DNA from: Nitrospirota bacterium
GTDB taxonomy: Bacteria; Nitrospirota; Thermodesulfovibrionia; Thermodesulfovibrionales; JdFR-88
Length of the DNA stretch: 64,000 bases
Reading direction: 5' to 3'
NCBI GenBank assembly: GCA_021789555.1
Contig: JAJYJK010000002.1
Span: 1-64,000, forward strand
The stretch's first letter is position 1; each line of letters starts with the position of its first letter. Below the pieces are notes generated by a model, which worked only from the letters and a program-made list of their open reading frames with translations, was not told the DNA's origin and did not search any database. Below are positions 6,675 through 61,838 of the stretch, one piece after another. Made by a program: the position numbers and the translations under genes.

Positions 6675-7280
6675 ATGGAAGGCGGGGATTTCAGGTTGGA
6701 GGCGCAGGGCGGGCGGCTGACATTCAGGACTTCATCCTTCGAGGCCCGGATGGGAAGCGTGCTTTCCCCCGTGGTCTACAGCCACGAGCTTTCCGCCATG
6801 CTGGCCGCGGCCCTTCCGGCAGCGGCGGCATTTTTACTGCTAGGCGGGGCCGGCCTTTGGCGCTATCCGGCCTTGGTTGCCGCATACGCGGCCGGGTTTT
6901 TTTTCTTCCGGCTCCTGGTATTCAAAAAAAGGTCCCTCACGCTGGAGGCGGACGGGAACACGGGGGAGATCATTCTTAAACTGCCGTTCAGGGGGGCAAA
7001 AAAATTCAGGGCGGAAGAGGTGGAAAGAGTCGAGGCGCGGCATACGACGATTACGACCGGAAACCCGGACGGGCTCCGGCAGGTCGAAAAAATAGCCCTT
7101 CACCATCATACTGTGCTGCCGGAGCTGGATAAGCCTATGGATTTCCATACGGTCCGGCTCCATCTGAAAGGGGGCCGGCCGCTTGATATCTATTCGGGTC
7201 ACAACAGCAAAGACGCGGCGGAGCTTGTAGTCGAGATAAGAAAGTTTCTCACCCCGGAGACCGGAGGCGAAGATGCCTAA
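6675..7280 (+). CDS. Membrane protein of unknown function inside the pyr operon
   Basis: About 201 residues. Two adjacent hydrophobic segments (roughly residues 35-55 and 60-77, rich in Ala/Leu/Phe) are followed by a soluble domain of alternating strands ([19 protein letters not shown], then a His-rich [11 protein letters not shown], then [17 protein letters not shown]). The shape recalls membrane-anchored PH-like (bPH/DUF304-type) proteins, but I see no diagnostic motif. The start is uncertain (ATG 6675 or TTG 6669; no clear ribosome-binding site). It overlaps carB by 8 nt, so it is cotranscribed with pyrimidine genes. No function can be assigned. Confidence 0.75.
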
Positions 7281-10200
7281 GCGGACGGACATAGAGAAGA
7301 TACTCATCATAGGCTCCGGCCCGATAATAATAGGCCAGGCGTGCGAGTTCGACTATTCGGGCACCCAGGCATGCAAGGCCCTCAGGGAGGAAGGCTATAG
7401 AGTTGTCCTCGTGAACTCCAATCCGGCGACCATAATGACGGACCCCGAGATAGCGGACGCCACATACATAGAGCCGCTCACGGCGGACTCCCTTGAGCTT
7501 ATCCTTGAAAAGGAAAGGCCGCAGGCCATATTGCCGACCATGGGCGGACAGACCGCGCTCAATCTGGCGGTCGAGCTTTCCGAAAAAGGGGCGCTCGACA
7601 GGCTGGGCATAGAGCTGATAGGGGCGAGGATAGATTCTATAAAGAAGGCCGAGGACAGGCGCCTCTTCCGCGAGAGCATGAAGAGCATCGGGCTGGAAGT
7701 GCCCAAAAGCGCCATTGTCTTCAGTCTGGAGGAAGGGCTCCGGCACATAGATGAGATAGGATTCCCCGCGATCCTGCGTCCCGCCTTCACGCTGGGCGGC
7801 ACCGGAGGGGGAGTGGTCTACAACCTGGAGGAATACGCGGAGCTCCTTGAAAAGGGCCTGAAACTGAGCCTCAACCACCAGGTGCTCGTGGAGGAATCCG
7901 CCCTGGGCTGGAAAGAGTACGAGCTTGAAGTCATGCGGGACATGCAAGACAACGTCGTCATCATATGCTCCATAGAAAATTTTGACCCGATGGGGGTGCA
8001 TACCGGCGACTCCATTACGGTCGCCCCGGCCCAAACACTCACCGACAGGGAATACCAGCGGATGCGAATCGCCTCGATAGACATCATCCGGGAGATAGGC
8101 GTCGACACGGGCGGCAGCAACATACAGTTCGCCGTCCATCCGGAGACCGGCAGGATGGTCGTCATAGAGATGAACCCCAGGGTATCCAGAAGCTCCGCCC
8201 TCGCCAGCAAGGCGACCGGTTTCCCGATAGCCAAGATAGCGGCCAAGCTCGCTGTTGGATTAGCCCTAAACGAAATCCAAAACAGCATCACCCGGGAGAC
8301 GCCGGCCAGTTTCGAGCCCGCAATCGACTATGTAGTCACGAAGATACCGCGTTTCGCCTTCGAGAAATTCCCCGAGGCCGACACCCAGCTCACCACACAG
8401 ATGAAGTCCGTGGGCGAGGTCATGGCCATCGGCAGGACCTTCAAGGAGTCCCTGCAAAAGGCCATAAGGAGCCTGGAGACCGGCAGCTACGGGTTCGAGC
8501 CGCTTCACATGGACAGAGAAGAGCTCGTCTCCAAGCTCAAGACGCCAAACCCCTCGCGCCTCTGGGCGCTAGGACAGGCGCTCCGGCAGGGTTTTGGCGT
8601 GAAGGAAGTGCACGGCCTTTCGATGATAGACCCCTGGTTTATCAACAATATAAAAGAGATCATCGAGGCCGAAGAGAGTTTGGCTGACGGCTCCCCCGCC
8701 GTCCTGGACGAAGAGGCGTTTTATGAGCTGAAGGGATCCGGCTTTTCGGACAGAAGGCTGGCGGACATCCTTAAAATCCCGGAGGAGCAGGTAAGACGGA
8801 CCAGGAAGGGGCTTGGCATCCGGGCCGTCTACAAGATGGTGGACACCTGCGCGGCGGAGTTTCAGGCGTTTACACCCTATCTCTACTCCACGTGGGAGAG
8901 ACCCTTCTACAAGCTGGAAGGGCCAGGCGAGGAAAGCAAAGGGGGACTGGTCCCACAGGAAAACAAAAGGGGACTGGTCCCCCTGGTCTCCGGGAGAATG
9001 GTCTCCGAATGCGAGGCCGCGCCCTCCGGAAGGAAAAAGGCCGTGATACTCGGCTCCGGCCCCAACCGCATAGGCCAGGGCATAGAGTTCGATTACTGCT
9101 GCGTGCACGCCGTCTTCGCCCTGAAGGAGCTTGGCTACGAGACGATAATGGTAAACTGCAACCCCGAGACCGTCAGCACCGATTACGACACGGCCGACAG
9201 GCTCTACTTCGAGCCCCTCACCATCGAGGACGTCATGAACATCCTCGAGGTGGAAAAGCCGGAGGGCGTGATTGTTCAATTTGGAGGGCAAACCCCGCTC
9301 AAGCTCGCCATCCCGCTTGAGCGCGAAGGGGTGAGGATAATGGGCACAAGCCCGGACGCGATAGACCGGGCGGAAGACAGGAAGCGTTTCAAGGAGCTGC
9401 TTGAGAAACTGGGGTTCAGGCAGCCGCAAAGCGATACGGCGTCCTCGGCGGAGGAGGCGCTGGCGGTGGCCGCGCACATCGGTTATCCGGTGATGGTGCG
9501 CCCCTCTTACGTGCTTGGCGGGCGGGCCATGGAGATCGTCTACGACGACGAGGCCCTTGCGGGCTATATGCAAAAGGCGGTACTGGCCTCGCCGGACCAC
9601 CCGGTGCTGATAGACAAGTACCTGGAAGACGCGGTCGAGGTGGACGTGGACGCGGCCTCGGACGGACGCGGCGTCTTTATCGGCGGCGTCATGGAGCATA
9701 TAGAGGAAGCGGGCATCCACTCGGGCGATTCCGCCTGCTCGATACCGCCTTATTCGCTGGATGCGCGGACCGTGGAGGAGATAGAGAGGCAGACGAAGGC
9801 GCTCGCTCTCGAACTTGGCGTGGTCGGGCTGATGAACGTGCAGTTCGCGATAAAAGGCAGGGACATCTACATACTCGAGGTGAACCCGCGCGCTTCGAGG
9901 ACCGTCCCTTTCGTGAGCAAGGCAACCGGGGTGCCGCTTGCGAAGGTGGCCGCGAAACTGACGGCTGGAAAGACGCTGGAAGAGCTGGGGCTTTCTGCCG
10001 GGGAAGGCGCAAAGCGCATGCATGGCCCGTCCCATATCGCGGTGAAGGAGGCGGTGTTCCCGTTTGACCGCTTCCAGGGCGTAGACCCGATCCTCGGGCC
10101 GGAAATGAAATCAACGGGCGAGGTCATGGGCATAGACCGCAATTTCGGGCTTGCCTTCGCAAAGGCGCAGACCGCTTCAAAAAACAGGATACCCGTCTCG

Positions 10201-10596
10201 GGCAAGATATTTTTCAGCCTGAGGGACAAGGACAAACCGGCCTCGGTAGCGCTGGCCGAAAGGCTTGCCGCGATGGGTTTCGGCATCGTGGCCACAAAGG
10301 GGACGGCAAGGCACCTTGCCCAATACGGCATCCAGGTGGAGAGCGTCAACAAGCTCATGGAAGGCAGGCCGAACGTCGTGGACCTCATAAAAAACCGGGA
10401 ACTCAGTTTCATCGTAAACACCATCAGCGACGCCCGGGCCCACAAGGACTCCTACTACATAAGACAAAACGCCATGCATTACGGCGTGCCCTACACCACC
10501 ACCATCTCGGGCGCGCGCGCCGTGGTGGAGGCGATCGAGAGCCTGAAGACCGGGGCCTGTTCCATCAGGCCCATACAGGAATACATTGGAGACTAG
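7273..10596 (+). CDS. carB: Carbamoyl-phosphate synthase large subunit, with in-frame repeat insertion
   Basis: Makes carbamoyl phosphate from bicarbonate, ammonia and two ATP. 1107 residues versus ~1073 in E. coli. Both homologous ATP-grasp halves are intact ([21 protein letters not shown] at the N-terminus; [19 protein letters not shown] opening the second half), as are the C-terminal allosteric domain and LEVNPRASR. Between YLYSTWE (residue 542) and [10 protein letters not shown] (from 580) lie about 36 extra residues containing GLVP twice. They are encoded by two palindromes of the GGGGACTGGTCCCC type (8942 and 8969) that match intergenic repeats elsewhere in the window. The insert sits at the junction between halves and keeps the frame. 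The gene ends convergently with the kinase, overlapping by 4 nt. Confidence 0.97.
8899..9009 (+). repeat. Palindromic repeat inserted in frame in carB
   Basis: About 110 nt absent from typical carB. Core copies GGGGACTGGTCCC at 8942 and GGGGACTGGTCCCC at 8969-8982 (perfect palindrome), with a degenerate third unit near 8984-9004. The first core is preceded by GAAAGCAAAGG, closely matching GAAAAGCCAAAGG before the same core at 61778-61804 and, inverted, in 41837-41862. The length is a multiple of three within the uncertainty of the borders. Confidence 0.8.
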
Positions 10597-47965: not shown

Positions 47966-50900
47966 TTAGAAAATAACAAAATCCTTTTCCTCTGTCAAAT
48001 GGCCCAGCACCTCGGAGACGTCCCTCAGGACCATGCGCTCGGAGACGAGCACCTCGAACCCCTCGGGGATGAATTTCAGCCTCCCGCCGAAGATTTTCAA
48101 AATTTCGTCTACCGGCGGAGAAGCCCCCGGCAGGAACCGAAACCTCGCCCTGCCGTCCATCTGCTCAATCCCGGCCACCGACGCGCGTTCGGAGGCTATC
48201 CTCAGGGACATCACCTGTATCAGGTTTTTAAGCTCCTCCGGAAGCGGTCCGAACCTCTCCGAACACTCCCGGGCAATCTTCCGCAACTGGCCCGCATCCC
48301 CGGAGGCCGCGATCCTCCGGTAGAAACCGAGCCGGAGGGAGATGTCCTCGATGTAGGAGTCGGGTATCAGGGCGTCCACCTTCAGCTCCACCGAGGGCAT
48401 GACCTTCTCCCTGATCTCTATCCCCTTCAGCTCTGCGACCGCCCGCTCCAGGAGTTCCATGTACATCTCGAACCCCAGGTCGTTTATATAGCCCGACTGC
48501 TCGGGGCCCAGCATGTTGCCCGCCCCCCTTATCTCCAGGTCCTTCATCGCCACCCTGAAACCCGCGCCCAGATAACTCAGTTCCTCGAGCGCCTGCAGCC
48601 TCTTTTTCGCGTCTTCGGTTATGATGTCGCCGCCCGGTATGAGAAACCACGCGTGGGCGGCAACGCTCCCCCTGCCTACCCTGCCCCTGAGCTGGTAGAG
48701 GTCCGCAAGGCCCATCATGTCCGCCCTGTCCACGATTATGGTATTGGCCGTGGGGATATCGATACCGGAGCCTATGATGGCGGTCGACAGCAGCAGGTCC
48801 AGTTCGCCGTCCATGAATTTTATCATCACGCGCTCAAGCTCGCTCTCCTTCATACGCCCGTGGGCCAGGCCCATCCGCACGGCCGGAAAGAGCCCCCGCA
48901 AGAGGCCCATTATCTTCTCGATGTCCTCTATCCGGTTATGGACGAAAAAGACCTGCCCCCCCCTGGCAAGCTCCGCGGAGACGGCCTCGCTTATAACGGT
49001 CTTGCTGAAGACCGCGATGGTGCTCTTCACGGCAAGTCTCTCCTCGGGGGGCGTCTCTATGACGCTAAAATCCCTTACGCCCGCAAGCGCCATCTGGAAT
49101 GTCCTCGGTATCGGCGTGGCCGTGAGCATGAGCGCGTCCACGCCCCTGCTTAGCTCTTTTATCCTCTCCTTCTGCGCGACCCCGAAGCGGTGCTCCTCGT
49201 CCACAACGAGGAGCCCCAGGTTTTTGAAACTGAGTCCGGCCCTGAAGATGGAGTGCGTGGCGATGAGTATGTCCACCTCGCCCTTCTCGAACGCCTCGAA
49301 CGTCAGCCGGTTTTCGGCCTTCGACTTGAACCTGCTTGCGAAATCTATCCTAACCGGGAAGGCCGCGAACCTGCCGGAAAAGGTCCTGAAATGCTGCTCG
49401 CACAGCAGTGTTGTCGGCACGATGACCACCGCCTGTCTTGCGTCATAGACCGCCTTGAAGGCGGCCCGCATGGCGACCTCCGTCTTGCCGTAGCCCACGT
49501 CCCCGCACAGGAGCCGCTCCATCGGGCGCGGCTCCTCCATGTCCTTCTTCACCTCGGCAATCGCCCGCGCCTGGTCCGGCGTGACCTCGTAGGGGAAGAA
49601 ATTGTCGAATTCCCTGTGCAGCTCGGTATCGGGGCTGAAAGCGAAACCCTTTGCGACCGCCCTTCCGGCATAGATTTTAAGGAGTTTTTCCGCCATCTCC
49701 CGGAGCCGCTTTTTGACCCTTGCCTTCCTGCGCTCCCATGCCTTTCCGCCGAGCCGGTCAAGCTGGGGTTTCACGCCCCCCTCCGGAGTTTTGTACTTGT
49801 GTATCTTCTCTATCCCGTAGAGGGGAAGGTATATCCTCGCCCCCTCGGCGTATTCGATAATAAGGAGGTCCGTCTTTGCCGCGCCCGCCGTGCCAGTTGT
49901 CCCTGCCTCCCCGGCGGCCTCCCGCGCAAACCCCATAAACCTGCCGACCCCATGCTCGCTATGGACAACGTAATCGCCCCCCTGCAGGTCGTCTATCGTC
50001 TGGAGAAGCCCGGAGATCCTCGATTTCTTCATCGGCTTCCATGCCGGCTTCTCCCCGAAAAGCTCCCTGTCCGTGACAATGAAAAGCCCCGGTTTTTGGC
50101 CTGAAAAATTCGGGCCCGAAAAATCCTGCCGCCCTGGGAAACTCATGGCGAACCCGGCGGAAAGCCCGCCCGGAAACGGGGTCGCGCAAAGGCCCCCTTC
50201 GTATGAAGGGACGTCCTCCGGATCCAGCACGGGCATGTGGAGCCCGTCTTCCCATAGGATGTTTTTGACCCTTTCGGCCTGCGTGGCGGATGAAAGGACG
50301 AAAAGGATTTCGGCCCCCGAGTCCCTGAGTCTTTTGACAACTGCGGGCAACTCGGTGATGTCGCGCCTCTCGTTATGCAGCAGGCCATAGCCCGACAGAG
50401 GCAGCAGACCAGTCTCCGGGAGACCAGTCTCCGCGAGACCAAAGCCCGTTTCTTCATGGGCGCCCGTCAGCGGGAGCCTGGAGAGCGTAATGGCGCCCTC
50501 GGGCATGCCGGAGGCGTCTTCAAGGGCGAAGAGCCGGCCCGCAAAGACGCCCAAGTCCGCCGGCTCTCCCCTGTCGGGCTCTTTCACGGGCAGTATGGAG
50601 AGCTGAAAGACCTCCTCCGTATGGAGCTGGCTTTCCACGTCGAAGAACCTCATGCTGTCGATGTCGTCCCCGAAGAACTCCACCCGCACGGGGTCAGGCA
50701 GGCCGGCCGGGAATACGTCCAGTATCCAGCCCTTCATCCTGAACTGTCCGGGCTGGCCCACAAGCGGGACGGGCTTGTAGCCCATTGCCGCGAGCCTGTT
50801 TTCAAGCGCCTGCCTTTCAAACGAGCCGGGATATGAAAGCTGTATCCTGAGTCCTTCAAGCACCTCGGCGGGCCATAAGGGGGCTGAAAGCGCGGCCTTC

Positions 50901-51238
50901 GATGCGACGATTATTTTTTTCTGCGTCTTTGACCTTGCGGAGAGCGCAAATTCCGCCCGCTTGCCGGAAATCTCGGGCCCGTCCGGCTCGGGCAGCAGGA
51001 AAACCTCGCCGGCGCCTCCGCCCAGGAGGCAGAGATAAAAGCCCGCGTCTCTCTGGAGTTTCAGGGCGTCGGACTCCCTCGGGGCGGCGCAGAAGATGGG
51101 CTTTTCATTTGGTTGCCCCGCGGCCATGGCCAATAGCAGGGCGGCGGCGGTCCCCCTCAGGCCGTGTATCCGCGAGGAGACCGCCAGAGACGGGAAAACG
51201 CCTTTTTTGAACTCTTCAAAGGCCTTTAGCAGCAGCAC
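47966..51238 (-). CDS. mfd: Transcription-repair coupling factor Mfd
   Basis: Removes stalled RNA polymerase and recruits UvrA. 1090 residues from a GTG start. The UvrB-like N-terminus shows RMKGWILDVFPAGLPDPVRVEFFGDDIDSMRFFD. The RNA-polymerase-interacting domain has GDYVVHSEHGVGRFMGF, the motor has LLCGDVGYGKTEVAMRAAF (Walker A), VVDEEHRFGV and TATPIPRTFQMAL, and the TRCF C-terminal domain is present. Near residues 266-282 a 15-bp tandem repeat encodes ETGFGLAETGLPETGLLPL in a linker; the same GACTGGTC palindrome as in carB is used. Confidence 0.96.
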   Translation of the reverse strand: MLLLKAFEEFKKGVFPSLAVSSRIHGLRGTAAALLLAMAAGQPNEKPIFCAAPRESDALKLQRDAGFYLCLLGGGAGEVFLLPEPDGPEISGKRAEFALSARSKTQKKIIVASKAALSAPLWPAEVLEGLRIQLSYPGSFERQALENRLAAMGYKPVPLVGQPGQFRMKGWILDVFPAGLPDPVRVEFFGDDIDSMRFFDVESQLHTEEVFQLSILPVKEPDRGEPADLGVFAGRLFALEDASGMPEGAITLSRLPLTGAHEETGFGLAETGLPETGLLPLSGYGLLHNERRDITELPAVVKRLRDSGAEILFVLSSATQAERVKNILWEDGLHMPVLDPEDVPSYEGGLCATPFPGGLSAGFAMSFPGRQDFSGPNFSGQKPGLFIVTDRELFGEKPAWKPMKKSRISGLLQTIDDLQGGDYVVHSEHGVGRFMGFAREAAGEAGTTGTAGAAKTDLLIIEYAEGARIYLPLYGIEKIHKYKTPEGGVKPQLDRLGGKAWERRKARVKKRLREMAEKLLKIYAGRAVAKGFAFSPDTELHREFDNFFPYEVTPDQARAIAEVKKDMEEPRPMERLLCGDVGYGKTEVAMRAAFKAVYDARQAVVIVPTTLLCEQHFRTFSGRFAAFPVRIDFASRFKSKAENRLTFEAFEKGEVDILIATHSIFRAGLSFKNLGLLVVDEEHRFGVAQKERIKELSRGVDALMLTATPIPRTFQMALAGVRDFSVIETPPEERLAVKSTIAVFSKTVISEAVSAELARGGQVFFVHNRIEDIEKIMGLLRGLFPAVRMGLAHGRMKESELERVMIKFMDGELDLLLSTAIIGSGIDIPTANTIIVDRADMMGLADLYQLRGRVGRGSVAAHAWFLIPGGDIITEDAKKRLQALEELSYLGAGFRVAMKDLEIRGAGNMLGPEQSGYINDLGFEMYMELLERAVAELKGIEIREKVMPSVELKVDALIPDSYIEDISLRLGFYRRIAASGDAGQLRKIARECSERFGPLPEELKNLIQVMSLRIASERASVAGIEQMDGRARFRFLPGASPPVDEILKIFGGRLKFIPEGFEVLVSERMVLRDVSEVLGHLTEEKDFVIF
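50406..50440 (-). repeat. 15-bp tandem palindromic repeat inside mfd
   Basis: AGACCAGTCTCC at 50406-50417 and 50421-50432 with period 15, and a third partial unit. Read on the coding strand, GGAGACTGGTCTCC is a perfect palindrome related to the carB insert core. The period of five codons preserves the frame. Confidence 0.8.
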
Positions 51239-61745: not shown

Positions 61746-61838
61746 GTGAAACCCTCTCCCTTAAGGGAGAGGCCCCCCGAAAAGCCAAAGGGGGACTGGT
61801 CTCCTTTTCGGAGCAAAGGTGGAACTTTGGAGAGGGTG
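61746..61838. repeat. CCCTCTCCC element (family B) with GACTGGTC core, upstream of lptC
   Basis: GTGAAACCCTCTCCCTTAAGGGAGAGG (perfect inner palindrome), then GAAAAGCCAAAGGGGGACTGGTCTCC, then a GGAGAGGGTG end. The last ten bases lie 8 nt before the lptC ATG and look like its Shine-Dalgarno. The core equals that in 41807-41893 and resembles the carB insert. Confidence 0.85.

Follow-up and report, generated by a model that had tools for sequence, protein, structure and literature searches.

A very short palindromic repeat in frame in mfd of a Nitrospirota bacterium, probably one of a family of dispersed palindromes

Introduction

Genome-wide invasion of housekeeping genes by in-frame palindromes is best known from Rickettsia.

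Rickettsia palindromic elements (RPEs) are palindromic repeats inserted into numerous unrelated protein genes without a shift of frame and tolerated by the host proteins; further copies lie between genes (PMC10969869, PMC3733652). They are about 150 bp long (PMC10969869) and end in CGTC (PMC3733652). GTAG/CGTC REPs are short palindromes, mostly intergenic, with others in genes for DNA repair or related to tRNA (PMC3733652); of the intragenic ones many are in repair genes, such as uvrA, uvrB, recB, and dnaE2 (PMC3733652, PMC10969869). PARCEL repeats occur in tandem in coding sequence, show dyad symmetry at the DNA level, and are patchily distributed; their product is a conserved amphipathic motif of 25 residues, and the ORFs that contain it have no assigned function (PMC2996958). 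The double-hairpin and palindromic elements of Allomyces and Fusarium mitochondria are optional and are deemed mobile from their presence or absence between relatives (PMC7218506).

The repeat described here lies in mfd, in a window of 64,000 nucleotides (the whole stretch of DNA that was analysed; contig JAJYJK010000002.1, positions 1 to 64,000). Like RPEs it occurs in frame in many unrelated ORFs; unlike them it has a core of 14 bp and a unit of 15 bp, carries no CGTC tag, forms 15-bp tandem arrays, and belongs to another phylum. With the GTAG/CGTC REPs it shares hosts related to DNA repair and tRNA (here mfd, a UvrD-like helicase, leuS, mnmE, and queA), but it lacks the GTAG/CGTC tag, is shorter than 20–40 bp, and has no RAYT linkage. 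As it differs from both groups in size and tag, it was assigned to neither. PARCEL is matched in tandem coding repeats with dyad symmetry and in patchy spread, whereas here the units are of five residues, without a 25-residue motif, the frames differ, and the hosts are housekeeping enzymes. The head-to-tail copies vary in number between orthologues as in a minisatellite, which leaves their dispersal unexplained. As with the mitochondrial elements, small palindromes are present in one relative and absent from another, but those belong to organelle genomes and the Fusarium ones were described in intergenic regions. No prior report of the core sequence was found in the literature searched, nor any on such palindromes in Nitrospirae. 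Present across a group of uncultured Nitrospirota bacteria, the repeat resembles the Rickettsia "selfish palindromes" on a much smaller scale and, by analogy, would work like RPEs and intragenic REPs.

Results

The repeat in mfd

47966..51238, minus strand: mfd, transcription-repair coupling factor (1090 aa), host gene; TIGR00580 equivalog and domains
50404..50447, minus strand: in-frame 15-bp array in mfd, two good units and one decayed unit, peptide ETGFGLAETGLPETGL
50419..50432, minus strand: best mfd unit, GGAGACTGGTCTCC, 6-bp arms and TG centre
50404..50417, minus strand: second mfd unit, GGAGACTGGTCTGC

The host gene was identified by TIGR00580 (NCBIfam; 916.6 bits against a cut-off of 800, E 2e-275) and by the Pfam domains UvrB_inter, CarD_TRCF_RID, DEAD, and TRCF; the best named matches of the protein are from 'Nitrospirae bacterium' MAGs. 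The plus strand reads AGACCAGTCTCCGGG (50406-50420), AGACCAGTCTCCGCG (50421-50435), and AGACC (50436-50440); the coding (minus) strand reads GGTCTCGC-GGAGACTGGTCTCCC-GGAGACTGGTCTGC, translated as ..LAETGLPETGL... Units are spaced by 15 and 15 bp, with 1, 0, and 4 mismatches to GGRGACTGGTCYCC. Sequence and translation of the array bear out an earlier note on this DNA, which had described a 15-bp unit, tandem and in frame, that encodes ETGL-type pentapeptides. The same note had called GGAGACTGGTCTCC a perfect palindrome, which has to be corrected: its reverse complement is GGAGACCAGTCTCC, the 6-bp arms pair, but the central dinucleotide (TG/CA) is unpaired, which gives the repeat a direction.

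In the protein the array corresponds to residues ~263-278, which lie after the UvrB-interaction domain (134-219) and ahead of the CarD/RID domain (418-482). An AlphaFold model of residues 1-500 (15 sequences) gives a pLDDT <50 at residues 257-274, which fits a predicted disordered loop from the UvrB-like part to the RID domain. The product of the repeat is most likely a disordered pentapeptide stretch without a role of its own.

Other host genes and reading frames

7273..10596, plus strand: carB, carbamoyl-phosphate synthase large subunit, second host gene in the window (PRK05294, 1705.9 bits)
8942..9006, plus strand: linker insertion in carB, three units, 22-residue peptide between the CarB halves
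8942-8955, plus strand: carB unit GGGGACTGGTCCCA
8969-8982, plus strand: carB unit GGGGACTGGTCCCC
8993-9006, plus strand: carB unit GGAGAATGGTCTCC

The carB insertion sits between a domain ending at residue 499 and a domain starting at residue 587. That the mfd and carB repeats are related, with spacings that keep the frame, had been proposed before and holds; their treatment as a matter of two genes does not, given dozens of dispersed copies, many of them intergenic. Hosts in this genome are mfd, carB, era, lysA, a HisKA kinase, cheA, acs, a T2SS M protein, a DegT aminotransferase, and others; in the sister species they are queA, a UvrD-like helicase, a nitrogenase-type protein (C-terminus), mnmE, leuS, an NtrC-like regulator, a polyketide-synthase-like protein, and a radical-SAM protein. 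Coding arrays are located in linkers, loops, or termini of the host proteins; copies in acs and the DegT aminotransferase are at the N-terminus, and the array in the HisKA kinase interrupts the HisKA domain.

Together the coding copies use all six reading frames: frame 1 in carB (GLVP) and frame 2 in mfd (ETGLP), with GDQSP in era, the histidine kinase, and cheA, GPVP in acs, and GTGP, GTSP, ETSP, and DWS/DWSP as further peptide types. Spacings are multiples of three in 25/29 cases inside predicted genes versus 7/13 outside (small numbers, some weak sites). The 15-bp unit (core plus one base) is stop-free in all six frames; since about 41% of random hairpin 15-mers are likewise stop-free, this property is permissive and not special, and a special design of the unit is ruled out. 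A near-perfect 7-unit 15-bp array in sister species G001 (L318; G001:C179:10943-11040) encodes (GPVPE)n within a 1007-residue open frame without Pfam match.

A genome-wide family

The family core is the 14-bp GGRGAC-TG-GTCYCC. The 2.85-Mb genome contains 27 copies of GGRGACTGGTCYCC and 0 of the reversed control; allowing <=2 mismatches raises these numbers to 130 and 50, respectively, with palindromic matches counted on both strands. In the window GACTGGTC was found five times (1.44 expected), a number reached by 0/100 shuffles. A 763-kb sample of the genome contained 32 hairpins with a 6-bp stem around an ACTGGT centre, where 1.4 would be expected, and GGGACTGGTCCC with its complement ranked among the 12-mers in greatest excess (29 versus 0.12 expected); this sample was partly picked around matches, and the whole-genome count is therefore fairer. 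A chance origin is ruled out by window shuffles, reversed control, and hairpin counts. Array units self-pair better than arms shuffled among units (101/145 cells against 89.3 +/- 3.4; 1/5000 shuffles reaches 101 paired cells), where the 29 units are not independent, since some are neighbours in one array or orthologous. Rfam, run on six core-bearing loci, gave no RNA family except a tRNA.

Two kinds of copies were seen. Tandem copies are head-to-tail, mostly inside genes, and spaced mostly by 15 bp (20 pairs), next by 12 and 30 bp, and by multiples of 15. Single cores are mostly intergenic and often lie in the loop of larger hairpin repeats: many occupy precisely the loop position of a MITE-like repeat, TTGATCTTCCCTGCGGCAA-loop-GCCGCAGGGAATCTAATGTAAGGAATTTTTTCA...CCCCGTGGCAA-loop-CCACGGGGAATACGCTCGCTATCCATTTAA, and others are within a GCATCTCCG...CGGAGATGC hairpin. 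In the MITE-like repeat some loops are empty (AAATTTTT) and others contain the core, pointing one way or the other, which suggests an insert of 14-16 bp. The window holds a nested copy:

61791..61804, plus strand: intergenic copy GGGGACTGGTCTCC, nested in a larger hairpin repeat
61750..61837, no strand assigned: larger AACCCTCTCCC...GGAGAGGGT repeat around the nested copy, limits approximate

The latter repeat, with the core nested inside, is this genome's other strongly over-represented family; AACCCTCTCCCT and its complement, which belong to it, are the most over-represented 12-mers.

Comparison with relatives

At the mfd site sister species G001 has no repeat (LPLEGASAPVLPLSGYGL), and in sister species G002 the site is occupied by another palindromic array, decayed in part (GAGGCTGGCCTCCCC...GGAGGCCAGCCTCCC); mfd of outer relatives is without insertion. 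The carB linker insertion is present in this species only, among relatives with a readable linker. The comparison of Mfd between relatives, for which the earlier note had called, and that of CarB thus show that repeat number and content vary between species. In Era each of the three species of the genus has an array of its own, unlike the other two; other genera have a short loop, and no relative outside the genus has an array. The spread may therefore be partly old and vertical. LysA has an insertion here and in G002 and none in G001. In intergenic alignments G001 (L246) holds a core-bearing stretch of ~110 bp that is absent from this genome, and this genome (L158) holds a double-hairpin element that is absent from G002. 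No target-site duplication was proven.

A stretch of 18.6 kb is 99% identical between L249 (G001:C143) and L166 (G000:C62), the species being ~80% identical elsewhere; it may stem from a recent transfer or from a contig assigned to the wrong genome in binning.

Distribution in the phylum

The core was surveyed in 396 genomes of the phylum (exact core; degenerate pattern for G001). Its own genus has 21 (G000), 9 (G002), and 14 (G001) copies; elsewhere it is abundant in G048 (26; 26-29) and in g55, a genus of another family (63, 161, and 229), and the other genomes have 0-1 exact cores each. In g55 the core lies within a longer repeat found between genes, ATGGGGTCAA-core-TTGCGGGGGG...GGGGGGCGGAGCCGCCCC. 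This repeat (G250, G256, G345; L223-L237) is ~65 bp long (ATGGGGTCAAGGGGACTGGTCCCCTTGCGGGGGG...), with 63-229 core copies per genome, and is often followed by a GC-rich hairpin and then a T-rich run. Almost all phased 15-bp pairs come from the own genus, with 17 in G001, 3 in G000, and 3 in G002; G048, G007, and G009 have one each, the remaining 134 genomes of the order 0, and g55 none, the reversed control giving 2 overall.

Discussion

The best reading of the repeat is a new, very short dispersed palindrome of RPE/REP type, which is tolerated where it falls in coding loops and grows by frame-neutral steps. The mfd repeat is probably a member of this family acting as selfish, non-autonomous DNA; near-identical copies at many unrelated places, nesting in hairpin loops, siting in surface loops, presence or absence between sister species, and the use of six frames support this. 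Movement between places is suggested by presence and absence at species level, and no transposase linked to the repeat was found among the Y1_Tnp loci and genomes examined.

The core would form the tip of a larger mobile hairpin and be copied or inserted with it into a new site; single-strand template switching may place it instead or in addition. In genes a copy would persist only where the net length is 3n and the protein loop tolerates it, and head-to-tail slippage would then add or remove frame-neutral 15-bp units. Because the unit is 15 bp long and stop-free in six frames, slippage could lengthen and shorten arrays and still preserve the frame. The arms may be kept complementary by template-switch copying from one to the other.

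Ordinary minisatellites, that is, local slippage in GC-rich linker DNA with a common consensus due to composition only, are an unlikely source of the whole family. The 15-bp head-to-tail periods, the variation of arrays in number and sequence between orthologues (era, mfd, histidine kinase), and the near-perfect 7-unit array of G001 agree with them, and slippage is the likely mechanism of array growth; one 14-bp core shared by unrelated genes, in either orientation and every frame, together with single intergenic copies and a count of 27 versus 0, does not. Slippage explains expansion and not dispersal, and minisatellites are therefore largely refuted as a full account.

It is quite unlikely that the 14-bp inverted repeat is a selected binding site for a chromosomal or regulatory protein, also within genes. 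The core is abundant with different flanks in three clades of the order (own genus, G048, and g55 with 63-229 copies) and its arms remain complementary, but most family relatives have 0-1 copies, the copies are at species-specific places, and phased arrays are mostly in open frames of no common gene class.

Mobilisation as a REP family by a RAYT/TIRYT tyrosine transposase with GGGGWSAS-type terminal repeats is very improbable, even though GGGGACTG is one base off GGGGACAG (GGGGWSAS, PMC3733652) and a Y1_Tnp gene of G001 (L264) is flanked on both sides by inward-facing GGGGACAGACACC: the GGGGACTGGTCCCC core is in the flanks of none of the Y1_Tnp loci examined, Y1_Tnp genes (defined by PF01797) number 0 in the core-rich G250 (229 cores), G256 (63), and G048 (26-29), and GTAG/CGTC is not enriched next to the palindrome (5/27 sites versus 860/4100, or 21%, of random positions). 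Known GTAG/CGTC tags and RAYT transposase do not account for the repeat. The GGGGACAGACACC copies at L264 (~847 and 1581) fit the GGGGWSAS motif of TIRYT elements.

Selection of the peptide itself, with a protein-level function of ETGLP-type linkers, would agree with in-gene arrays that stay in open frames at linkers, loops, and termini, but is extremely improbable, since six frames yield six different peptides (ETGLP, GLVP, GDQSP, GPVP, GTSP, DWSP) and therefore no common one, and such linkers are lacking in sister species.

Beyond the selfish-palindrome reading preferred here, a bolder version is doubtful but conceivable, namely a minimal mobile palindrome of 14-16 bp that spreads itself via DNA hairpin tips, has no transposase of its own, and adds disordered segments to proteins. 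Single-strand copying would take it into loops of other hairpins and into genes, and essential proteins would gain disordered segments in frame-neutral 15-bp steps.

The family would add a second clade, unrelated to Rickettsia, in which the element is much shorter; its presence differs between sister species, which with their empty sites offer a test bed for palindrome spread, and the same system could show whether palindromes add new loops to essential proteins.

A viral vehicle was rejected, AAGGGGACTGGTCCCC being found in just three IMG/VR contigs, one of which has the same flanks as the g55 repeat. IMG/VR contigs L296 and L298 hold several AAGGGGACTGGTCCCCGTCCC copies with repeated flanks of their own, a further context for the core.
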